NCBI GenBank assembly: GCA_015655335.1
Contig: JAATFF010000026.1
Coordinates: forward strand, 1-43,927
Reading direction: 5' to 3'
DNA from: Lysobacterales bacterium
Lineage (GTDB): Bacteria > Pseudomonadota > Gammaproteobacteria > Xanthomonadales > Rhodanobacteraceae
DNA length: 43,927 nucleotides
Shown here piece after piece: positions 3,653-40,167 of the stretch. Under the pieces are notes generated by a model. The model worked only from the letters and a program-made list of their open reading frames with translations. It had not been told where the DNA came from and did no database searches. Positions within the stretch are counted from its first letter, which is position 1. Each line of letters starts with the position of its first letter. Both the position numbers and the translations under genes were made by a program.

Positions 3653-3680
3653 AGATGCGGCTCTTTGCGTTTGCTTCCTC

Positions 3681-3808
3681 TCATCTCTGGGGAGAGGATT
3701 GAGGTGAGGGATCAATCTTGCAATGAACCTTCATCAAAGCATGTTTTCAATCGATGCTTTCGCAAGATTGGCCCCTCATCCCAAGCTTCTCCCCACAGGG
3801 GAGAAGGA
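3681..3808. repeat. REP-like palindromic repeat pair (about 125 bp imperfect inverted repeat)
   Basis: Nested inverted repeats between two minus-strand genes. The inner stem pairs 3736-3742 with 3754-3760 (7 bp). Next, 3713-3721 pairs with 3762-3770 (9 bp, perfect). The outer arms (about 3686-3710 and 3772-3800) are imperfect complements sharing a TGGGGAGA core. Each arm also carries its own small CTCTCC/GGGGAG hairpin. The sequence has the flavour of the GGGGAGAG-rich intergenic repeats common in Xanthomonadales. A related motif recurs at 43602-43620. Confidence 0.7.
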
Positions 3809-3827
3809 GCAAAGGCAAAGAGCCACC

Positions 3828-4268
3828 TCAATGGCCTAGCACCGTGACCGTCACCTTCCGTTGATGCGGATCCACCCGGTGTTCCCACAGGTAGATCCCC
3901 TGCCATGTTCCCAACTGCGGCTTGCCGCCGTGCACGGGGATGGTAAGGCTGACACCGGTGAGGATGGCTCGCACGTGGGAAGGCATGTCGTCGGGGCCTT
4001 CGGCATCATGTTCAAAGATGGCATCGCCATCAGGCACCGCGCGGGCGAACCAGCGCTCAAGATCGCTACGCACCGCCGGATCGGCGTTTTCGCTGATCAG
4101 CAGCGAGCAACTGGTATGCGCGGTGAAAACATGGACGAGGCCGACCTGCACGCCGCTTGATGAAACCAGCTGGGCCACCTTGTCGGTGACTTCGCTGAAA
4201 CCACGGCCGCGCGTGTGTACGGTAAAACCATTCTGTGTGACATGTTCCGCAGGTGTGGCTCGGCTCAT
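3828..4268 (-). CDS. yjbQ: YjbQ family protein (UPF0047; secondary thiamine-phosphate synthase)
   Basis: 146 residues, close to the usual size (about 138-145) of this trimeric cytosolic family. E. coli YjbQ has weak thiamine-phosphate synthase activity; the physiological role is still debated. Family signatures are all present: HVFTAHTSCSLLISENADP, the HDAEGPDDMPSHVRA histidine motif, ILTGVSLTIPV, and GTWQGIYLWEHR near the C-terminus. The ATG at 4268 gives the normal N-terminus. It lies 13 bases downstream of pdxH on the same strand, so the two likely form one transcript. The palindromic repeat at 3681-3808 lies just after its stop and may stabilise the message end. Confidence 0.93.
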   Translation of the reverse strand: MSRATPAEHVTQNGFTVHTRGRGFSEVTDKVAQLVSSSGVQVGLVHVFTAHTSCSLLISENADPAVRSDLERWFARAVPDGDAIFEHDAEGPDDMPSHVRAILTGVSLTIPVHGGKPQLGTWQGIYLWEHRVDPHQRKVTVTVLGH

Positions 4269-10165: not shown

Positions 10166-11236
10166 ATGCTTCCTTCCCTCAAGAACGATCTTTTGCTGCG
10201 CGCCCTGCGCCGCGAACCCACCGATACCACGCCCGTATGGGTCATGCGCCAGGCCGGCCGCTACCTGCCGGAATACCGCACGACCCGCGCCAAGGCCGGC
10301 AGCTTCATGGCCCTGGCTCAAAACCCCGAGCTGGCCTGCGAGGTAACGCTGCAACCGCTGCGCCGCTTCGAGCTGGATGCGGCGATCCTGTTCTCGGACA
10401 TCCTCACCATTCCCGACGCGATGGGTCTGGGCCTGTCGTTTGCGCAGGGCGAGGGTCCACAGTTCGCACGTCCGGTGCGCAGTCGCGCCGATGTCGAACG
10501 GCTGGGCGTACCTGACATGGAAAGCGAGCTGCGCTACGTCATGGATGCCGTGCGACTGATCCGTCGCGAACTGGACGGCCGTGTACCGCTGATCGGCTTC
10601 TCTGGCAGCCCCTGGACACTCGCCTGCTACATGGTGGAAGGCGAAGGCTCGCGCGATTTCGCCACCGCCAAAGCGATGTGCTGGAACGAACCTGCTTTGG
10701 CGCACACGCTGCTGGACACGTTGGCGAAATCGGTAGCCGCCTACCTCATTGCACAGGCGGCAGCAGGCGTTCAAGTATTGATGATTTTCGATACCTGGGG
10801 CGGTCTACTGAGCCCTTCCGCTTACCGTGAATTTTCACTGCGCTATATGGCGCGCGTCGTCGAAGTATTGAAAGCAGATACGCACGCGCGCGATCTTCCG
10901 GTGATCCTCTTTTCCAAAGGTGCCGCTGCACATCTCGCCGACATGGCCGACACAGGCTGCGCTGCGCTCGGCGTGGACTGGACCATCGACTTGGCCGACG
11001 CACGTCGCGCGGTGAACAGCAAGGTGGCGCTGCAAGGCAATCTCGACCCAGCGGTGTTGCGCGCCAACCCCGAGATCATCCGTCGCGAAGTGCGCAACAT
11101 ACTCGACAGTTACGGCAACCATCCCGGCCACGTTTTCAATTTCGGCCACGGCATTACGCCCGAGGTCGATCCTGAGCACGTGAAAGTGCTCGTCGACGAA
11201 GTGCATAGCTACAGCCGCCAGTTGCGCGGCCGCTAA
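10166..11236 (+). CDS. hemE: Uroporphyrinogen decarboxylase
   Basis: Cytosolic, cofactor-free decarboxylation of the four acetate groups of uroporphyrinogen III to give coproporphyrinogen III in haem synthesis. 356 residues, normal. Signatures: the N-terminal substrate loop [16 protein letters not shown] (about residues 23-38), the active-site aspartate region [45 protein letters not shown], and near the end GNLDPAVL and HVFNFGHGI. The ATG immediately follows the stop codon of the WGR-like gene. A strong 17-bp hairpin closes the transcript at 11249-11286. Confidence 0.97.
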
Positions 11237-28576: not shown

Positions 28577-29044
28577 ATGGCTACCAGCATCGGCATTGCC
28601 AAGAAGGACCGCGAAACCATCGCCAAGCAGTTATCCAAGCTGCTTGCGGATACCTACTCCCTGTATCTGAAAACCCATAGCTTTCACTGGAACGTGACAG
28701 GCCCTCATTTCAACAGCCTGCACGGCATGTTCGAGATCCAGTACAACGAACTGTGGCTGGCCGCGGACGAAGTCGCCGAGCGCATTCGCACCCTCGACGT
28801 GTTTGCACCGGGCTCGTACAGCCAGTTCGGCAAGCTCACCACCATCAAGGAAGAATCCGGCGTGCCGGACTGGAAGGACATGGTCGGCCAGCTGGTGACC
28901 GGCCACGAAATCGCCGCGACCACGGCACGCGCGGTGATCAAGGCGGCCGATGCATCAGGCGACGAAGGCACCGCGGACATGGTGACCGGCCGCCTGAAGG
29001 AGCATGAAAAGACCGCGTGGATGTTGCGTTCGCTGTTGAAGTAA
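28577..29044 (+). CDS. dps: DNA starvation/stationary-phase protection protein Dps
   Basis: 155-residue ferritin-like dodecamer subunit that binds DNA, oxidises Fe(II) with peroxide and stores the iron. The interfacial ferroxidase ligands of the family line up: H37 and H49 ([20 protein letters not shown]), E53, and D64 and E68 (AADEVAERI). The C-terminus ([20 protein letters not shown]) is the final helix; the N-terminal tail is short and carries lysines ([10 protein letters not shown]). A strong AAGGAG (28565-28570) precedes the ATG at 28577. A 9-bp hairpin follows the gene at 29083-29105. No clear OxyR or Fur site could be picked out by eye in the upstream 128 bases. Confidence 0.96.
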
Positions 29045-29423: not shown

Positions 29424-32012
29424 TTGAGCGCCAGACCCACCCAAACAAAATCCAAGCTGTCGATTTTCACCGCTATCGTGCTGGCGTTGACGGTCGCCGC
29501 GCTGAATATCGGCCTGTGGTGGTGGGGTAATCGCCCGCATGGCCCGGATGACTGGCATGGGCAGATCAACGGCTTCGCCGTCTCGTTTTTCCAGCGCTAC
29601 CAAAGCCCGTTCACGCAAAGTTTCCCCAGCGACAACCAGATCGACGGCGACCTCAAGGTATTGCGCCCGTACACCGACCGCATCCGCACCTACTCCACAC
29701 TGGAAAACCCCCAGGTCTACCGTCTGGCCCAGAAGGAAAGGCTGAAAGTGATGGCGGGCGCGCAGATCGACACCCGTCTTGAGAACAACGAAAAGGAAAT
29801 GGACGCGCTGATCGCGCTGTCACACCGGTATCCGGACACCATCGATCGCGTGATCATCGGCAACGAGGTGCTGTTCCGGAACGATCTTCCCGTGGATCGG
29901 ATGATCACCTACCTGGATCGCGCCCGCGCGCACATCAAACAGCCCGTATCGATCGCCGAGCCGGACTACATCTGGCTGAAGTACCCGGAGCTGGCCGATC
30001 ACGTAGATTTCATCACTATCCACCTGTTCCCGTTCTGGAACGGCGTTGACCGCAAGGATTCCATCGGCGCCGCCCTGGGTGCCTATAACGCGATCAAGCA
30101 ACGATTCCCCAACAAGCTGGTCATCGTTGGTTAAATAGGTTGGCCATCCAATGGCGATCGACGTGAGCGCGCCTATCCGTCCATCTCCAACGAAGCCATC
30201 TTCATCCGCGATTGGCTCAATGTGGCGAAGGCTGACCACATTCCGTACTACCTGATGGAAGCCTTCGACCAGCCGTGGAAAGAACAGCTTTCGGGCCGTA
30301 CTGAAGCCTATTGGGGCATGTTCAGCGCCGATCGCCAGCTGAAATTCCCCTTCATCGGCCCGGTCACCGAAGACACCGGCTGGCCGTGGAAGGCGCTCGC
30401 CGCCAGCCTGCTCGCGCTGATACCGATGATCTGGTTCGGTATCCGCTTCAGCCGCTTCAAGCCAATGGGTCGTTTGTTCTTCGACTTCCTGATCCAGCTG
30501 GCCTGCGGCTTGATCGTGTGGTCGGTGACGCTGCCGTTCAATTTCTATCTGGACTGGATCGACTGGAGCATGTTGGTGCTGCTGTTCCCGGCGCAGGTGG
30601 CGATCCTGCTGATCAATGGCTTCGAATTCACCGAAGTGCTGTGGCGGCGCGAGTGGATTCGCCATGCCGGGATGCTCACGCCCGATCCGGCCGAGAAACA
30701 GCCCTTCGTCTCCATTCACCTGGCTTGCTACAACGAGCCGCCGGAAATGGTGATCATCACGCTCGACTCGCTGGCCGCGCTCGACTACCAGAACTACGAA
30801 GTGCTGGTCATCGACAACAACACCAAAGATCCGGCGATCTGGAAGCCGGTACAGGAATACTGCGAGAAACTCGGCGAGCATTTCCGCTTCTTCCATCTGG
30901 AACCGTGGCCGGGCTACAAAGCCGGCGCACTGAATTTCGGCCTGAAAGAAACCGATCCGCGCGCCGAAGTTGTCGCGGTGATCGACGCCGACTACGAAGT
31001 CCGTGCGGACTGGCTGGCCACACTGACCGGCCACTTCCACGACCCGAAAGTCGCCGTGGTGCAATGCCCGCAAGCGCATCGCGATTTCGAGCACAACCGC
31101 TTCCGCCGCATGACGGCGTGGGAATACGACGGTTTCTTCCGCATCGGCATGCACCATCGCAACGAGCGCAACGCCATCATCCAGCACGGCACCATGACCA
31201 TGGTGCGGCGCTCGGCGCTGGAAGGCACCGGCGGTTGGTCGGAGTGGACCATCTGCGAAGATGCCGAACTCGGCCTGCGCCTGATGCATGCCGGCTATGA
31301 GCTGGTCTACGTCGATGAGCTGATGGGCAAGGGCCTCACGCCCGCCGACTTCAAGGCTTATAAGAGCCAGCGCTACCGCTGGGCCTTCGGCGCCATGCAG
31401 ATCCTCAAGGGCCGCTGGAGCTGGATGACGAAGAAAGGCCCGTTGACCAGCGGCCAACGCTTCCACTTTCTCACCGGCTGGTTCAGCTGGTTTGCCGATG
31501 CACTGCATCTGCTCTTCACCCTGATGGCGATCTTCTGGACCGCCGGCATGGTGGCGATGCCGCAGCTCTTCAGCCTGCCGATGCAGCTATTCCTGGTTCC
31601 GGTGATTGGCTTCTTCTTCGCCAAGGCCATTTTCGGTTTCGTGCTGTATCGCGCCCGCGTTCCCTGCAGCTGGTACGACACCCTGATGGCCTCGGTCGCC
31701 AGCATGGGCCTTAGCCACGCCATCGCGCGGGGCATCCTGCACGGACTCACGCGCGAGAAAACCTCGTTCGTGGTAACGGCCAAGAGCCGGCGCCTGGGCG
31801 GCAGCAACTTCGCCGCTTTTGCTCCCGTTCGCGAAGAACTCCTGATGGCCTGCGCGCTCTTGCTGTGCATCGTCGGTATGGCGTTGAGCTTCGGAACGCG
31901 CTACATCGAAGGCACGTTGTGGATGTTCATCCTGGGCGCACAAGCGATTCCCTACGTCTCGGCGCTGGCGGGTGCATGGATCGCGCATACGGCGGGCGAT
32001 AAGGCCGGCTGA
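29424..32012 (+). pseudogene. GH17-GT2 beta-glucan synthase/transglycosylase (NdvB-like), interrupted by an in-frame TAA
   Basis: One continuous frame of 863 codons broken only by TAA at codon 237. The start is taken as TTG 29424 (MSARPTQTKS); a GTG at 29352 is possible. Membrane helix about 13-33. A GH17-like domain follows: RTYSTLENP, the acid/base glutamate E148 in RVIIGNEVLF, then HLFPFWNG and KLVIVG, after which the family motif E-(T/I)-GWP is expected; here it reads stop-IGWPSNG. After several membrane helices comes a GT2 synthase domain (LACYNEPPE from about 432, DAD 521-523, TICEDAELGLR, QRYRW 649-653) and more membrane helices. Such fusions make or remodel periplasmic beta-1,3-type glucans. 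The 5' piece is 236 residues; a GT2 piece could restart at GTG 30222 or ATG 30255/30318. Confidence 0.85.
30132..30134 (+). other. In-frame ochre codon at the GH17 nucleophile position
   Basis: TAA sits between KLVIVG and IGWPSNG. The GH17 signature requires glutamate here, and GAA to TAA is one base change. The reading frame is the same on both sides, so this is a substitution, not a frameshift. Confidence 0.9.
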
Positions 32013-32067
32013 TCGCTTGGGCGCCCTTCCGCCGGGAGAGGAGCCGACGAAAAGACGCACTGCAAAA

Positions 32068-32095
32068 TAGGGGCATGCTTAATGCGCAGCCCCTA
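32068..32095. terminator. 7-bp hairpin between the glucan synthase gene and tamA
   Basis: TAGGGGC (32068-32074) pairs with GCCCCTA (32089-32095); the loop contains a smaller GCAT/ATGC pairing. It lies 56 bases after the glucan synthase stop and 56 before the tamA start, so it may end the first transcript. No T tract. Confidence 0.35.
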
Positions 32096-32150
32096 CCCGA
32101 CTCGCTAAGCTGCCACTTGCGATGTCGTGACGAGGATGGAACCCTGACGC

Positions 32151-33914
32151 ATGCGCCGGATTCGCCGCCGCCACATTCTGCTACTGCTGTTGCTGATCCC
32201 GGGATTGAGTCATGCCGGGGTGCAACTGGTTGTGGACGGGGTTGACGATCCACTGAAAGCCGCCGTGATCGCCGGCGTCAGCCTTTCCCAGTACAGCAAT
32301 CGCGACGTGAGCGAGGCGCAGGTGCATCGCCTTTATGAGAAGGCCGACACACAGGTCGCTACCGCGCTGCAGCCGTATGGTTACTACGATGCGCACGCGA
32401 CCGGGAAACTCGAACAGGTCGGCAAAGATTGGAAGGTGACCTTGCATGTAGTGCCCGGCGATCCGGTCAACGTCACGTCGGTCGATATCCAGATCGATAC
32501 GTCCGCCGCAAAACTCGGCCCCATTCGTTCCGCTCGACGCGCCATCGACAAGCTCAAGGGCGAACGCCTTGACGACGGCGCTTACGACTCGGCACGCGAT
32601 GGATTAAGCGGCGCGCTCACCGCCAACGGCTATCTGGATGCGCGCATGACCGTGCATCGCGTCGACGTGAATCGCGGCGAGCACAGCGCTGCCATCCATC
32701 TGGCTTGGGAGGTCGGTCGCCGTTACCGCTACGGACACATTCATTTCGAAGGCTCGCAATTCCAGGAAGGATTTCTGGATCGCTACGTGCCGTTTAAATC
32801 CGGCGATTATTTCGATCAGGCGCAACTGCTGAAGCTACAACAGACGTTGAGTGGCGCCGACTATTTCTCCGTCGTCAACGTGATTCCGCAAATCGACACG
32901 GCGAAGAACGGCATCGTCGATATCGATGTGGAACTGTCGCCCGCCAAACGCACGATCTACACCGCCGGCCTGTTCGTCGGCACCGATACCGGTATTGGTG
33001 TGCGCGGTGGCGTCGAACAGCGCTGGGTGAACAAGTACGGACACAAATGGAAGAACGACATTGTGTTGGCGCAACGCCTGAAGATGGTGTCGACGCAATA
33101 CACCATTCCGCTGCCGGGCGATAACCAGCGCAGCCTGAACTTTGGCGCGACGTATCGCGATTCGGACACCGTGACCTCGCAATCGCGCACGCTCGAATTG
33201 ATCGCGAATGAAAGTGAGCTATGGCACGACTGGATTCGCACGGTAGGTGTCCATGCACTCACGGGCACATTCGACGTCGGCAAGACACCCGACGAACCCG
33301 AAAACACACCCGGTGTGGAGCACGGCAGCAGCACGCTCGTTTATGTCGAAGGTTCGCTCGCGCGCAAACAGGCCGACAATTTCGATTTCGTTCGCCGTGG
33401 CTGGTCCATCAGCATCGATGCAAAGAGTACGGCAAGCGATTTCCTTTCGTCGGCAAGCTTCAGCCAGATTACCGTCGATGGAAAATGGATACGCGCATTC
33501 TGGCGCAACAATCGACTGATCCTGCGCAGCACGATCGGACACACCTGGACCGACGATTTCGAAGCACTGCCGCCGCAGCTGCGTTTCTTCGGGGGTGGCG
33601 ATCAATCCATCCGCGGCTATCCGTTCCAGTCGATCGGCCCTGAAAACAGCTACGGTCGCGTGATCGGCGGCCACAATCTCGCTATTGCCAGCGCCACCGT
33701 GGAGCACTACTTCACGCCGCGTTGGGGCATCGCCACCTTTGTCGATGCTGGCAACGCTTTCGACGGCACGAGCGTGCAGGCAAAAATCGGTACTGGCGTC
33801 GGTGTACGCTGGCGCTCGCCGGTTGGCATGATCCGGCTCGATGTCGGCACCCCGATCAACGACGCACAGCGTCACGGTGTCGAATTGCACCTGGTCATCG
33901 GGCCGGATCTGTGA
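32151..33914 (+). CDS. tamA: Translocation and assembly module outer-membrane subunit TamA
   Basis: 587-residue Omp85-family protein that helps insert autotransporters and other beta-barrels. A Sec signal peptide ends near SHAG (residue 22). Three POTRA domains follow (about 23-265); examples are ALQPYGYYDAHATGKLEQ and LTANGYLDARMTVHRVDV. A 16-strand barrel makes up the rest. The substrate-loop motif GGGDQSIRGY at 481-490 is the Omp85 signature, and the last residues end in an aromatic/hydrophobic-rich strand (VELHLVIGPDL). The ATG at 32151 gives a proper signal peptide. tamB starts 9 bases after the stop, the conserved tamA-tamB pair. Confidence 0.95.
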   Translation: MRRIRRRHILLLLLLIPGLSHAGVQLVVDGVDDPLKAAVIAGVSLSQYSNRDVSEAQVHRLYEKADTQVATALQPYGYYDAHATGKLEQVGKDWKVTLHVVPGDPVNVTSVDIQIDTSAAKLGPIRSARRAIDKLKGERLDDGAYDSARDGLSGALTANGYLDARMTVHRVDVNRGEHSAAIHLAWEVGRRYRYGHIHFEGSQFQEGFLDRYVPFKSGDYFDQAQLLKLQQTLSGADYFSVVNVIPQIDTAKNGIVDIDVELSPAKRTIYTAGLFVGTDTGIGVRGGVEQRWVNKYGHKWKNDIVLAQRLKMVSTQYTIPLPGDNQRSLNFGATYRDSDTVTSQSRTLELIANESELWHDWIRTVGVHALTGTFDVGKTPDEPENTPGVEHGSSTLVYVEGSLARKQADNFDFVRRGWSISIDAKSTASDFLSSASFSQITVDGKWIRAFWRNNRLILRSTIGHTWTDDFEALPPQLRFFGGGDQSIRGYPFQSIGPENSYGRVIGGHNLAIASATVEHYFTPRWGIATFVDAGNAFDGTSVQAKIGTGVGVRWRSPVGMIRLDVGTPINDAQRHGVELHLVIGPDL

Positions 33915-33923
33915 GGCCATGAC

Positions 33924-36900
33924 GTGAATACCGCATCCAAGCCCACTCCCCGCCCTCGCCGTCGCTGGCTGCGCGTGTTCGGCATCGTCGTGCTGCTTGT
34001 CGTCGTGCTCCTGGCGAGCGGCACCGGCTGGTTGTTGTGCACGGCGCCGGGCCTACGTTTTGCGCTGGAACGTGCAGAAGGTTTCACAAACGGCGCGTTG
34101 CAGGTGCAGAACGCGCAGGGGCGTCTGATTGGTCCGCTGCAGATAGGCAGCGTGCGTTATGACGATGGCGAAGGCACGCATGTCGCGATTACCAACGCAG
34201 ACATCGAGTGGCACCTGGGTGCCCTGCTCTACAAACGCCTGCACGTCACCAGCCTCAACGTTGATCGCGTGGATGTCGCACTGCCCAAGCCCAAGGAAGA
34301 ATCTTCCTCGTCCAGCAGCTTTTCGCTGAAACCTTCGATCGAGATGGTGCTGGATCGCGTGTATGTCGGTCCGGTGACTATCACGCAGGGCAACAAGCCG
34401 GTATTCGCCTCCGATCAACTCGATCTCGCCGGGCGCTGGACGAACGATGGCATCCGTGTCGATCGCCTGTCGCTGCATGCACCGGAGGGTTACGTCCATG
34501 TGGACGGCCAACTGGGCATCGGCAAACGGTATCGCGGCAAAGGCCATGCAGTGGTGTCATGGAAGATCGGCGACAACGAATACGCCGGCACGATCGATGC
34601 GCAAGGCAACGGACGCAGTGCGCAATTACAACTTGCGCTGACACAACCCATGCTCGCGCAACTGCGGCTTGAGATGGATCAACGCAAGAACAATGCATGG
34701 ACTGGCAAGCTCGATCTGCCTGCGTTCGATCCGAAACCGTTGATCGGCGATAGTTCGATGTCGCGTCTCGCGGCAAACCTGCAAGGCAGCGGCGATCAAT
34801 ACGGCGGCACGATCACCGGTGCACTCGATCTCAACGACTATCATCTGCTGCTTCAACCACTGCAAGGTCAGTTCGACAAGGATTTCAAGACGCTCACGCT
34901 GCAGCAGCTTCAACTTGCATCGCCACAGATGAAAGGCCAAGTCAGCGCCAAGGGCACTATCCAGCTCGACGCACACCCTATAAGCGCCGACCTCGCCGTC
35001 AACTGGAAAAACCTGGAACTGCCCGCCAGTCTAGTTGGACAGATGCTCGATAGTCAGGGCCAGATCACCGCGAAAGGCAGCATCGATCAGTATCACGCCG
35101 AAGGCGATGTCACGATCGGGCCACCGGGTAAACCGGCGAAGCTCGCGTTGAATCTGGACGGCACGCCAAAGCAGATCCAACTGCATACGCTCAGCCTGCT
35201 ACAGCCGCAAGGTCAACTCGCCGCCAACGGCACGCTTACGCTTGTGCCGGATCTTGCATGGCAATTCCAGGCGACCGCCAGCAAATTCGATCCGGGCCAA
35301 TTGTTCGTAGATTGGCCGGGCTCGCTCGATGCCGACTTCGGTACGCAAGGCACGCTCACCAAGAATAGTCCCAACGTCACCCTCGATCTGCGTAAACTGG
35401 AGGGCACGTTACGGCAACGCCGCTTGCATGGCGTCGGCCATCTGCATCTGTCGCCCAACGATGTGCTCGACGGTACGCTGGAACTGGCCTCAGGCAACAG
35501 CACGGTGAAAGTGCTTGCCCGCCCGGGTGACAGCAACAACGCAGATGTTACGCTTGCCATCGCATCGCTCGGCGATTGGCTACAGCAATCCGGCGGTCAA
35601 TTGAATGGTCAATTTCATGTGCGCGGCAAGCTGCCCAAGCTGGCCATCAACGGTACGCTGCAAGGCCAGTCGGTTGCATGGGAACAACAAACCATTCAGC
35701 GCCTGAATTTGCAGGCCGATATTCCCGACATCAGCACCCCCGGTGGAAAGCTTGCCATCGACGCCTCCGGCGCGAACATCGGCGGCCTCGCCTTCCATCA
35801 AATCGATGTAAACGGCCATGGCACCTCAGCGCAGCATCAACTGACATTGAATGCGCAAGGCCAGCAGCTCTCTACTTCGCTGACGCTCAATGGATCGCTG
35901 AAAGGCCAGAACTGGAACGGCACGCTTTCTGCACTCACGCTTGATGTATCCGGACTGCCGCGCTGGCATTTGCAGCAGCCGACGCGACTAGCGTGGAATA
36001 ACGGTAGCGCGAATGTCGGCGATCTTTGCCTAACAGCCGGCGATCCGTCGCTGTGCGTCAATGGCAGTTACGACAAGAGCGGCAATCTCGACGCCAGTTA
36101 TCGCTTGCACGCCGTGCCACTCACGTTGGTGATGGACGCGACAGGTAGCGCGAACATGCCAGTAAGCGCCGAGGGTGTGCTCGAGGGAAGTGGAAAAATC
36201 CATCGCAATGCTGCGGGCAACCTGACGGGCAACGCGAGCATTACCTCATCGCACGGTCGCATCATCTATAACGAACACCCCGATCAACCGGCGCTTACGT
36301 ATAACAACCTCGCGCTCAATGCCACGCTCGCGCCTGGAAACCAACAGGCGACACTTCATGCCATCATCTACGGCACCGGCTATGTGAATGGCCAAGCGTC
36401 CATTACAGGTGCGCAGCAAGTGTTGACCAGCCAGATCGGCATGCATCTGGATAAGCTCGACATCATTGGCCTGTTCACCGATTCGCTTGCGAACGTCAAG
36501 GGCAAGCTCGATGGCAATTTCAAACTCGGTGGCACGTTAAACGAACCAGCCATTACGGGACTGGCGAGCGTCGATAGCTTCGCCGCCGAAGTGCCCGACG
36601 CGGGATTGAAACTGACAAATGGCCGATTGACCGTAAGCGCCGCCGATACACGCCAGTTGCGCATCAACGGCACGGTGCAATCCGGCAAGGGATCGCTGGC
36701 GATCGAAGGCGTTGCAGGGCTCGACGCGCAAACGCCCACCGCGATCACCTTCAAAGGCAGCCAGTTCACGGCAGTCGACATTCCCGCTGCAAAAGTCGTC
36801 ATCTCACCCGATGTACTCGTGCGACGCGATACGCAGGGCATTAACGCCACGGGTAGCGTGTCGATGGATAGCGCTGACGTGAACCTCGACAAGTTGCCGG

Positions 36901-37706
36901 GCAATGGCGTGAATAAGGCGTCGTCCGATATCGTGATCGTCGATCAACCGCAGCAACCGGCCAACGATGGCGGCATGCCCATCAATGCGTCGATCAAGGT
37001 CGATCTCGGAAAGCACGCGCATCTTGTCGGCATGGGCTTGGACGGCCGATTGAGCGGCGTGATCACTGTCAACGAACGACCGGGCCGCGAAACCACGGGA
37101 CAGGGCCAGGTAAGCGTCGACGGCACGTACAAAGCGTACGGTCAGAATCTGCAGATGCAGCATGGCTTGTTGTTGTTCGCCAGCTCGCCCATCAGCAATC
37201 CCGGACTCAACATTCGCGCGCTACGTAGCCTTACACCGAATGCCACGATCGATGAAGGACAGCAGGTAGGTCTGCTCATCTCCGGTACCGCGCAGCGGCC
37301 GGTGCTCACCGTGTTTTCCAACCCGGCGATGGATCAATCCGACGCGTTGTCCTATCTGGTGACCGGCAAGCCGATTTCACAGGTGAAAGGCGGGGAAGGC
37401 AGCATGGTGACGGCGGCAGCTCAGGCATTGGGGTCGGCGACCGGCAATCTTTTGGCGAAGAGTGTCGGCAGCAAACTCGGCATCAGCGATATCGGCGTAT
37501 CGAGCAGCGACGCGTTGAATGGCAGTTCGGCATTCACCGTCGGCAAATACCTGTCGCCGCGGCTGTATCTCAGCTATGGCATCGGGCTTTTCGAACCTGG
37601 ACAGGTGATCACGCTGCGCTATCGCTTGAGCAAGCGCTGGAGTTTCGAAGCGCAGAACGCCACTGACTTCAACCGCGCCAGCCTTAACTATCGCATCGAA
37701 AAGTAA
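33924..37706 (+). CDS. tamB: Translocation and assembly module inner-membrane subunit TamB (AsmA-like)
   Basis: 1260-residue protein anchored in the inner membrane by one N-terminal helix (about 15-35, LRVFGIVVLLVVVLLASGTGWLL) and spanning the periplasm as a long beta-taco. It is thought to work with TamA and to carry phospholipids to the outer membrane. The body is repetitive beta sequence with many G.L..(D/N)G.. turns. The C-terminal DUF490 region shows LGKHAHLVGMGLDGRLSG, SNPGLNIRALRS, SDALSYLVTGKPIS, and the final YLSPRLYLSYGIGLFEPG with RYRLSKRWSFEAQN. The start is a GTG at 33924, 9 bases after tamA; no ATG fits. Confidence 0.95.
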   Translation: MNTASKPTPRPRRRWLRVFGIVVLLVVVLLASGTGWLLCTAPGLRFALERAEGFTNGALQVQNAQGRLIGPLQIGSVRYDDGEGTHVAITNADIEWHLGALLYKRLHVTSLNVDRVDVALPKPKEESSSSSSFSLKPSIEMVLDRVYVGPVTITQGNKPVFASDQLDLAGRWTNDGIRVDRLSLHAPEGYVHVDGQLGIGKRYRGKGHAVVSWKIGDNEYAGTIDAQGNGRSAQLQLALTQPMLAQLRLEMDQRKNNAWTGKLDLPAFDPKPLIGDSSMSRLAANLQGSGDQYGGTITGALDLNDYHLLLQPLQGQFDKDFKTLTLQQLQLASPQMKGQVSAKGTIQLDAHPISADLAVNWKNLELPASLVGQMLDSQGQITAKGSIDQYHAEGDVTIGPPGKPAKLALNLDGTPKQIQLHTLSLLQPQGQLAANGTLTLVPDLAWQFQATASKFDPGQLFVDWPGSLDADFGTQGTLTKNSPNVTLDLRKLEGTLRQRRLHGVGHLHLSPNDVLDGTLELASGNSTVKVLARPGDSNNADVTLAIASLGDWLQQSGGQLNGQFHVRGKLPKLAINGTLQGQSVAWEQQTIQRLNLQADIPDISTPGGKLAIDASGANIGGLAFHQIDVNGHGTSAQHQLTLNAQGQQLSTSLTLNGSLKGQNWNGTLSALTLDVSGLPRWHLQQPTRLAWNNGSANVGDLCLTAGDPSLCVNGSYDKSGNLDASYRLHAVPLTLVMDATGSANMPVSAEGVLEGSGKIHRNAAGNLTGNASITSSHGRIIYNEHPDQPALTYNNLALNATLAPGNQQATLHAIIYGTGYVNGQASITGAQQVLTSQIGMHLDKLDIIGLFTDSLANVKGKLDGNFKLGGTLNEPAITGLASVDSFAAEVPDAGLKLTNGRLTVSAADTRQLRINGTVQSGKGSLAIEGVAGLDAQTPTAITFKGSQFTAVDIPAAKVVISPDVLVRRDTQGINATGSVSMDSADVNLDKLPGNGVNKASSDIVIVDQPQQPANDGGMPINASIKVDLGKHAHLVGMGLDGRLSGVITVNERPGRETTGQGQVSVDGTYKAYGQNLQMQHGLLLFASSPISNPGLNIRALRSLTPNATIDEGQQVGLLISGTAQRPVLTVFSNPAMDQSDALSYLVTGKPISQVKGGEGSMVTAAAQALGSATGNLLAKSVGSKLGISDIGVSSSDALNGSSAFTVGKYLSPRLYLSYGIGLFEPGQVITLRYRLSKRWSFEAQNATDFNRASLNYRIEK

Positions 37707-37718
37707 TGACGCGCGGCG

Positions 37719-38492
37719 TTATCGCTTGTGCGCCGAACACCCGCAACTTTCCTCGTGATAGCGCCCGTTGCGCTCCACGGTGCCGTGCGTGCCGTATTTG
37801 TCGTGAGGCCGCACCCAATCGCCCAGTGAATGGTGTGGACCGTACTCCGCCCTGCCCTTCGGGCTGACATCCAGGAACGGATAGATTCCCAGAAATATCT
37901 CGCAACCGCGGCCGAATGCGGCATAGGTGAGAAAGATTTCGCCCTTTTCGTTCTTGTAGAAAACGCTGTCGCCTGACAGATCTTCCATTGGCGGATCGAT
38001 TTCACGGAAGTTATAGACCGCCTTTTTCGCCTGCATTTGCTTCGGCGTGTACGACACATCGAAGTCGTAATTGAAATCGCTGCGATATGAAGAGACAAAC
38101 GGAAAACGCCAACCCATTCGTTTGCGCAACACTTCAATTTCTTCCAGCGGCGCACGCGCAATCGCCACGTACGAAAGATCGTGGTTCTGCAGATGCACCA
38201 GAGTGCCTTCCAGATGATCGACCTCCAAGGCGCACCCAACGCAATGATGCTGTTGCCCTGGACCCAGCATGTAATGCTTGACGAACAGCTGACTTCGTCC
38301 GTCAAAAAGATCCGATAGCGTCAGCTTTCCCGAAGGACTTTCGAACTCATAATTTTTCTCAATCTTCAGCCAGGGCAGCGCACGCCGCTCGGCGTTGAGC
38401 TGATCGCCCAGCTGCATATGCGCCTTCTCTTTCGCTACCAGGGCCCGACGAGCCTCCAGCCACGCTTCGCGCGATACGACGTCATGTTCCAT
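37719..38492 (-). CDS. DUF899 family thioredoxin-like protein
   Basis: 257-residue cytosolic protein of the DUF899 group, which has a thioredoxin/AhpC-like fold. Family pattern: EAWLEARRALVAKEKAH at the N-terminus, RRALPWLKIEKNYEF, LSDLFDGRSQLFVKHYMLGP, then a CVGC pair at residues 84-87 and VDHLEGTLVHLQNHDLSYVAIARAP. The long FREIDPPMEDLSGDSVFYKNEKGEIFLTYAAFGRG region and the C-terminal SCGCSAH follow. The CxxC and the C-terminal cysteines suggest redox or metal chemistry, but the substrate is unknown. A GTG at 38504 is in frame, yet the ATG at 38492 has GGAG 7 bases upstream, so I use it. It lies 21 bases after the DHA2 transporter gene and is convergent with tamB (12 bases). Confidence 0.86.
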   Translation of the reverse strand: MEHDVVSREAWLEARRALVAKEKAHMQLGDQLNAERRALPWLKIEKNYEFESPSGKLTLSDLFDGRSQLFVKHYMLGPGQQHHCVGCALEVDHLEGTLVHLQNHDLSYVAIARAPLEEIEVLRKRMGWRFPFVSSYRSDFNYDFDVSYTPKQMQAKKAVYNFREIDPPMEDLSGDSVFYKNEKGEIFLTYAAFGRGCEIFLGIYPFLDVSPKGRAEYGPHHSLGDWVRPHDKYGTHGTVERNGRYHEESCGCSAHKR

Positions 38493-38513
38493 GGCGATCT
38501 CCACTAAGACGTT

Positions 38514-39980
38514 TCAATGTGCCGCAACAGGTTGTTCATCGGCTGGTGCGCGAGCGATACGCAGCAACGCCGCACCGATCAATGCCGCCAGGGCAGCGAA
38601 GCACGCGCCGACCAAGAACGCGGATTGATAGCCGGATGCCAGCGCAAATGTCTGCGTTCGTCCCATCGCAAGCATTGTTTGCGATCGCGACGCTGCGAGA
38701 CTTGCGAGCACCGCCAGTCCAAGCGGGCCGCCCAGCATGAAAGCGGTGTTGACCATGCCCGACGCCAGGCCTGATTCATTCGGCGACACATCATTCATTG
38801 CCGCCAGCAACATCGGATTGAATGCAATACCTGCACCAAGCCCCAGCATCACCATGCCGGGAAGAATGTCGCGCACGAAATGACCGTTTTCCGGCGCATG
38901 CGAGAACAACAGCAAACCGCATGCCGCGAAAACCAGCCCCCACGCAAGCGGACGACGAATGCCAAAACGCATCACCAGCTTCGCGGACAGGCCGAGCGAA
39001 AACGCAGCCATGATGATATTGGCCGGCAGAAACGCCAGGCCCACCTCCATCGGGCTGTAACCGAGCACAAGCTGCATGTACAAGGCGGAGAGAAAGAACC
39101 ACGCGAACATCGACGCCGCCCACAGCACAGCGGTGATATTGGCAACCGCCAGATTGCGCAGGCGGAACAAGCGCAGCGGCATCAGCGGCACACGCACGCG
39201 CGTTTCGATCCAGAAAAATACAGCGAGTATCAGCACCGCCACCGCAAGCTGTCCCAGCGTACGCGATGATGTCCAGCCCATCTGGTTGCCGTTGACGATG
39301 GCATATACCGCCAACAGCATCGCCGCAGTGACGGTGACCGCGCCCCACACATCCAGATGTCGCGAAGCCACGCTGCCGTGTGCCGCGGGCAACAAGCGCA
39401 GCGACAGCATCATGACGATGATACCGATGGGCAGATTGACCAGAAATATCCAGTGCCAGCTCAGGCTGCTGGTCAGTACGCCGCCGAGCATCGCGCCAAT
39501 GCTGCCGCCTCCGGCGCACACGAAACCGTAGATGCCCATCGCTTTCGCGCGATCAGCGGGTTCCGTAAACAGATCCATGATCAGCGATAACCCGACCGCG
39601 CTGACGACGGCGCCGCCAAGTCCTTGCACGCTGCGCGCGACGACCAATTCGAGCTGTGTCGTCGATAGACCGCATGCGAGCGACGCCAGCGTAAAAAGCG
39701 CGATGCCGTACAGAAACAGTTTTCGATGCCCGTACAAATCGCCAAGCCGTCCGCCCAGCAAGAGAAAACCGCCATACGTCAGCATGTAGGCATTGACCAC
39801 CCAAGCCAAAGCCGTATCGCTAAACAGCAGATCCGTTTTGATCGACGGCAGCGCCACGTTCACGATGGTGGTATCCAGCACGATCATCAACACGCCAAGG
39901 CACAGCACCATAAGTGCCCACCAGCGTCGATCCGAATGCATGGACGCGTGGATGGCTGGACCAGTGGAAGACGCCGTCAT
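38514..39980 (-). CDS. MFS drug exporter, DHA2 family (EmrB/QacA type)
   Basis: 488-residue inner-membrane proton antiporter with at least a dozen hydrophobic segments; DHA2 members have 14. Signatures: LCLGVLMIVLDTTIVNVALPSI in helix 1 (motif D1), the loop LGGRLGDLYGHRKLFLYG (motif A), ARSVQGLGGAVVSAVG (motif B), and GPxG-like FVCAGGGSIGAMLGGVLTSSLSWHWIFLVNLPIG (motif C). Substrates are probably toxic hydrophobic compounds. The frame is open to 40151, but a perfect AGGAGA site precedes the ATG at 39980. DUF899 follows on the same strand by 21 bases. No MFP (EmrA) or regulator gene is adjacent. Confidence 0.93.
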   Translation of the reverse strand: MTASSTGPAIHASMHSDRRWWALMVLCLGVLMIVLDTTIVNVALPSIKTDLLFSDTALAWVVNAYMLTYGGFLLLGGRLGDLYGHRKLFLYGIALFTLASLACGLSTTQLELVVARSVQGLGGAVVSAVGLSLIMDLFTEPADRAKAMGIYGFVCAGGGSIGAMLGGVLTSSLSWHWIFLVNLPIGIIVMMLSLRLLPAAHGSVASRHLDVWGAVTVTAAMLLAVYAIVNGNQMGWTSSRTLGQLAVAVLILAVFFWIETRVRVPLMPLRLFRLRNLAVANITAVLWAASMFAWFFLSALYMQLVLGYSPMEVGLAFLPANIIMAAFSLGLSAKLVMRFGIRRPLAWGLVFAACGLLLFSHAPENGHFVRDILPGMVMLGLGAGIAFNPMLLAAMNDVSPNESGLASGMVNTAFMLGGPLGLAVLASLAASRSQTMLAMGRTQTFALASGYQSAFLVGACFAALAALIGAALLRIARAPADEQPVAAH

Positions 39981-39984
39981 GATT

Positions 39985-39990
39985 TCTCCT
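39985..39990 (-). promoter_or_regulatory. Ribosome binding site AGGAGA deciding the DHA2 transporter start
   Basis: Read on the minus strand, AGGAGA lies 4 bases before the ATG at 39980. It rules out the longer frame starting at 40151, which would bury the GH92 promoter. Confidence 0.75.
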
Positions 39991-40138
39991 GAAAGTTGTT
40001 GCGGCCGCGGCGAATACCGGCGGCCTCTGTATCTGCGTCGAACGAGCCGTCCCGTAATCGACATGTGACACTGAACGCGTTCGGCCATGCTAGACCATAC
40101 GCCGCTGCCGCCGGGCTCACGCGTTGCTGCGCTGCGGT

Positions 40139-40167
40139 TTGACACAGGCAATTTAGATCGATTTAAA
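40139..40167 (+). promoter_or_regulatory. Candidate sigma-70 promoter for the GH92 gene
   Basis: A perfect -35 TTGACA at 40139-40144, 17 bases, then TTTAAA at 40162-40167 (4 of 6 to TATAAT). It lies 58 bases before the GH92 ATG; an AGGGG ribosome site is at 40214-40218. AT-rich bases 40151-40168 between -35 and -10 could hold an operator. Confidence 0.55.

Follow-up and report, generated by a model that had tools for sequence, protein, structure and literature searches.

In-frame stop codon at the GH17 nucleophile of a GH17-GT2 glucan synthase gene in a Dyella draft genome: a possible recent null allele

In the sections of PMC10237404 that deal with them, the 'Orphan' BcsA-like GH17-GT2 proteins of pseudomonads are proposed to be cyclic beta-1,3-glucan synthases, and the motifs given there are E(T/S)GWP(T/S) for the nucleophile and VG(S/N)EV for the proton donor. 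The GH17 beta-1,3-glucanosyltransferase of the solved structure 4wtp differs from the protein described here: it is soluble, stands alone and has its nucleophile intact. The window (the whole stretch of DNA that was analysed, 43,927 nucleotides) corresponds to the complete contig C101 of a draft assembly and carries an interrupted GH17-GT2 gene. A literature search on premature stop codons as pseudogenes or as sequencing errors, with the GH17-GT2 family outside its scope, has found nothing.

The GH17-GT2 reading frame extends from 29424 to 32012 on the forward strand, with 862 codons preceding its natural TGA stop, and membrane anchor, GH17 barrel, membrane helices and GT2 domain are read along it in this order. 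A single internal stop, TAA at 30132-30134 (+), is located at the GH17 nucleophile codon, in KLVIVG(stop)IGWPSNG. The N-terminal piece (29424-30131, +, 236 codons) comprises the membrane anchor and the beginning of the GH17 barrel, in which the acid/base residue E148 lies; it starts with TTG at 29424, and the reading frame is open upstream to GTG 29352. The remaining frame (30135-32012, +, 625 codons plus TGA) includes the end of GH17, the membrane helices and the GT2 domain. This reading has confirmed the initial annotation, which had placed one TAA at these coordinates in an otherwise open frame with no other frameshift or stop.

The protein was aligned with phmmer in its read-through form, with an X placed at the stop. 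It matched 4wtp with an E value of 6.9e-27 over query residues 64-307, and the X was aligned with the E of ISETGWPS in this GH17 glucanosyltransferase; in 4wtr/4wts, the second deposited sequence, an A is found exactly at the column of X. The match to 4wtp spans both pieces and the piece after the stop matched Pfam GT2 families, which supports the GH17-GT2 architecture first proposed. The post-stop piece also matched the GH17 tail at 31.1 bits (cut-off 28.2). For the pre-stop piece, Pfam and NCBIfam gave no match at E 0.001. It must be counted against the family label that Pfam GH17 was found only on the post-stop piece, whereas the solved-structure match covers both. Glutamate was present at the stop column in 45/45 aligned relatives, which together with the 4wtp alignment locates the stop at the GH17 nucleophile, as had been claimed. 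The claims on the other catalytic elements also held: the acid/base E148 (IGNEV) is E in 45/45 relatives, with the proton-donor G-N-E motif kept in the window copy, and the GT2 motifs DAD, CEDAELG and QRYRW were read in frame.

A total of 59 loci were gathered, from which 12 duplicates, L095 (the same as L078) and L117 (cut by a contig end) were dropped. The 45 rows kept for conservation and trees were 15 from Dyella, the genus to which the window lineage belongs and one of the two named in the initial annotation, and 30 from other relatives; 24 of these rows were used for the comparison of private columns, and eight relatives plus the window for the codon model. The comparison with orthologues suggested in the initial annotation gave, besides the invariant glutamate, a frame unbroken in 15/15 congeners, with 871-901 codons. 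A match to the post-stop query was found in 230/233 family genomes and, among the matches listed, all 149 besides the window were in open frames of at least 828 codons spanning the nucleophile. The stop was found solely in the window assembly among the relatives seen, a disrupting lesion peculiar to the window lineage in an otherwise conserved frame, as would be expected of a pseudogene. No second GH17-GT2 copy was found in the window's own assembly. Another GH17 membrane protein of 532 codons is encoded on contig C108 of the same genome; it has an intact ETGWPS and is about 34% identical in GH17, but it is far shorter than the GH17-GT2 protein and matched the post-stop query over residues 2-102 only. 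A match of this GH17 kind was obtained in 16/16 genomes of the genus.

The initial annotation had described the membrane helices as all preserved, which was contradicted by the alignment. An in-frame loss of nine bases, equal to one unit of a short tandem repeat, is located at the junction 30599/30600 (+), and one membrane helix is three residues short with respect to 45/45 relatives, in which the three columns are occupied. On the basis of the alignment, this deletion would speak against a preserved GT2-only enzyme. Private columns amounted to nine in the window, four of them due to the stop and the deletion, vs 0-7 in the 24 other rows. At 30243, the window has P and the 24-row set D, in a column that is not invariant among the 45 rows.

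The gene also has a mosaic structure. A patch of Rhodanobacter-type sequence at about 30186-30339 (+) is nearer to non-Dyella relatives (best amino-acid identity 87% vs 70%) and has a one-codon gap common to 5 of the 30 non-Dyella rows. In a tree of its 156 columns it groups with L079 at an SH-aLRT of no more than 85; the remainder of the gene clusters with L072 at an SH-aLRT of 99. The patch begins about 50 bases after the stop. A local error hot spot or a donor tract containing the stop has been considered and rejected, the surrounding residues being Dyella-like (GDRRERAYPSISN). A second Rhodanobacter-like stretch was observed at 31809-31943, the tree having been made for 30186-30339 alone.

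On its right side the gene is followed by a stretch, from about 32.0 to 40.1 kb, in which the window shares 85-91% identity with L071 (G072, D. dinghuensis), and other relatives reach mostly 61-80%, with L077 at 86% in one bin. To the left of the gene L071 is no nearer to the window than the others, and in long matches elsewhere in the genome G072 shows about 75-77% identity, G082 being the nearest at 82-83%. Judging from these identities, the tract at 32000-40150 would derive either from homologous exchange or from a chimeric assembly. This tract holds tamA-, tamB-, DUF899- and MFS-type genes. The G082 record, from which L072 and L084 were taken (contig C132), is named 'Candidatus Eremiobacteraeota bacterium isolate BOG_genome_mining.93'; its sequence is Dyella-like, the genome search puts it in the genus of the window, and the name is likely wrong. 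A short dispersed REP-like repeat was observed at 3660-3830 of the window, with many imperfect copies on both strands in this and related genomes, and in G074, G075 and G076 the GH17-GT2 gene is closely followed by further copies.

With the codon model, omega on the window branch was 0.098 vs 0.088 in the background for the whole gene (p 0.55), 0.128 vs 0.145 before the stop (p 0.70) and 0.083 vs 0.061 after it (p 0.056). The 75 codons after the stop gave 0.127 vs 0.062 (p 0.18, on a long branch), and from 76 codons after the stop onward the values were 0.061 vs 0.057 (p 0.84). In the likelihood profile, for which only the length of the window branch was re-optimised, 2 delta lnL was about 4.6 (4.56) at omega 0.14, and a rough mixture allows at most about 5% of the window branch to have been free of constraint, as recent loss predicts. 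The omega of four of the five other tested tips was not different from the background. In the fifth, L076 of G068, an intact GH17-GT2 gene, a raised branch omega (0.182 vs 0.082, p shown as 0.000) was observed. Relaxed selection has been discarded as proof of a pseudogene, omega being normal on the window branch, and a higher value would in any case have lacked specificity, as the intact L076 shows. From the normal omega it follows that the stop is young, or that it is not real, or that the pieces are still under selection, and omega alone cannot separate these cases. The dN/dS check proposed in the initial annotation has therefore found no relaxation on the window branch, a result compatible with a stop of recent date, with an error and with constraint that still persists.

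The window assembly has 3,504,455 bases in 169 contigs, is 86.17% complete and 1.44% contaminated and, from its fragmentation, is probably metagenome-derived. In order to scan it for stops, 326,253 of its bases (the window and 20 stretches) were compared by alignment with proteins from relatives, and 175,334 of them were covered. A codon-usage scan for in-frame stops had been too noisy and had missed the stop at 30132, homology being used in its place. Sixteen stops were flagged, and two of them showed third-codon-position change on both sides: the one at 30132 and one at L125:14184-14186, in a conserved gene for a GspD-like secretin. The latter, located on the reverse strand (G000:C108:74184-74186), is also an isolated in-frame stop of the same assembly; the broken gene matched Pfam Secretin and GspD N0, and an intact copy is present in G075. 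The reverse control with two relatives (217,577 covered bases) yielded 12 flags, with two passing the rule, both in L150 of G075 and both set aside as antisense frames. One of them lies under a 433-codon frame on the opposite strand; for the other, the query comes from L126, where the frame on the opposite strand is presumably FliO-like, and the control would count one instead of zero if this flag is real. Fifteen relatives at the GH17-GT2 locus (270,695 covered bases, two loci being common to both control sets) gave four flags, none passing. Two isolated stops vs none in the controls is a suggestive result, but it is a small number and fits error and gene decay alike.

The explanation that we favour, with modest confidence, is that of an ordinary GH17-GT2 'Orphan' cyclic-glucan-synthase gene in which a null mutation has arisen recently in this Dyella lineage. 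We infer that the stop is real, the truncated product inactive and no restart product made. Translation would end at residue 236, within the GH17 barrel and ahead of any GT2 residue, so that neither half would be expected to work, and the helix deletion and the mosaic patch would fit a gene that is drifting or being recombined, their order relative to the stop being left free. A null allele would be supported by the position of the stop, at an invariant glutamate in a frame unbroken in all congeners, by a second in-frame lesion in a tandem repeat, which is unusual for sequencing, and by the lack of Shine-Dalgarno-like sites ahead of the restarts; the whole-gene omega supports it as well, being as recent loss predicts. 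Against it, the assembly is fragmented and incomplete, the second isolated stop fits a consensus error equally, the normal omega fits a gene intact in the living cell or constrained pieces, the 9-base deletion keeps the frame open and could be tolerated, and the private columns are not far above those of intact copies. The main rival, next after the recent null allele, is a consensus or assembly error: the genome is a draft and probably metagenome-derived, and the gene would be intact in the living bacterium. We regard this error as quite possible, though less likely than a null allele. The number of contigs and the completeness of the assembly speak for it, as do the two clean genes with isolated stops, when none was accepted in either control, and the mosaic signal, which could come from mixed strains. 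However, a 9-base deletion is no usual sequencing error, two against none remains a small number, the metagenomic origin is itself deduced from fragmentation, and essential genes should be struck by errors too, but the two that are broken here seem dispensable. The initial annotation had offered four readings, of which recent pseudogene and sequence error are left standing and GT2 split and programmed readthrough are not supported.

A split of the gene, in which translation would restart beyond the stop and yield a GT2-only synthase that selection maintains in the absence of GH17 activity, appears very unlikely. The downstream frame keeps DAD, ED and QRYRW over 596 codons from the candidate GTG at 30222-30224 (+), a restart proposed in the initial annotation, and omega is at the background level from 76 codons after the stop onward; nevertheless, on a long branch a young stop would leave omega low in any case, and for everything after the stop it is, if anything, raised. 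No Shine-Dalgarno-like sequence was found in the 20 bases before 30222, 30255 or 30318; at the candidate ATG 30318-30320 (+) only a G-rich stretch, GGGGC, directly abuts the start codon, too near for a usual Shine-Dalgarno site. With these sites lacking and a conserved helix of the GT2 half shortened, the survival of a GT2 synthase by restart has not been sustained. That such a GT2-only enzyme, its transglycosylase off, makes an uncut linear glucan instead of a cyclic one, perhaps with assistance from the other, intact GH17 protein that the genome encodes, is a little more improbable still. Programmed readthrough or recoding of the TAA, giving a full-length protein in part of the molecules, would be allowed by a frame open to its natural end, and we give it hardly any credit: all relatives seen lack a stop at this site, and TAA also ends the window genes at 10166-11236, 28577-29044 and 33924-37706, among others. 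A change of genetic code gained no support: among 24 window frames picked by hand, each of the three stop codons terminates other genes. It had also been suggested that selection removed GH17 catalysis in particular. One substitution separates 199/861 sense codons from a stop and, with the nucleophile codon added, a catalytic glutamate would therefore be struck by about 2 of every 200 random nonsense changes, so that a stop at one of the two is a coincidence of about 1 in 100. This exact position is what speaks for such selection, but many possible catalytic hits across many genes make one coincidence unremarkable, an intact E-GWPS motif is still present in the separate GH17 protein of the genome, and the stop takes the GT2 half too, the synthase not being spared, which makes it a poor way to select against GH17 alone. 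Selection of this kind is thus not needed and seems to us scarcely credible. Neither the sequence comparison nor the selection and restart-site checks gave support to a purpose for the stop.

If the stop is real, the window holds a single naturally occurring null allele of a GH17-GT2 glucan synthase otherwise conserved across the family, and its lineage is able to live without this synthase or has lost it recently. If it is an error, the case calls for caution on single stops in fragmented genomes. A new mechanism is opened neither by a real stop nor by an error, and the mosaic gene with its adjoining exchanged tract may be more useful, as an example of recombination affecting a conserved synthase gene.

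Compared with known systems, the window gene is best described, from its alignments, as a broken member of the 'Orphan' BcsA-like GH17-GT2 family, the annotated product of which would lack two defining features. The nucleophile E of E-x-GWP is missing in the window copy, its codon being the stop, and GH17 and GT2 are not in one open frame, as they are in the 15 congeners. As in the Orphan proteins, a periplasmic GH17 domain, membrane helices and a cytoplasmic GT2 domain would be predicted in a single chain, with the proton-donor NE, DAD, ED and Q(Q/R)xRW and with no PilZ match; unlike them, the window copy has a stop at the E-GWPS nucleophile and has lost three helix residues. The similarity to the GH17 beta-1,3-glucanosyltransferase 4wtp/4wtr, which we take to be the RmBgt17A of PMC10237404, puts both catalytic residues in register. 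The BcsA cellulose synthase (4hg6, 4p00 and 5ej1; E 2.4e-25 to 3.1e-25) shares the GT2 core and the membrane helices that follow it, but BcsA has no GH17 domain and the window protein no PilZ match, and the score of the window protein was 125 bits, with a curated CelA cut-off of 699 bits.
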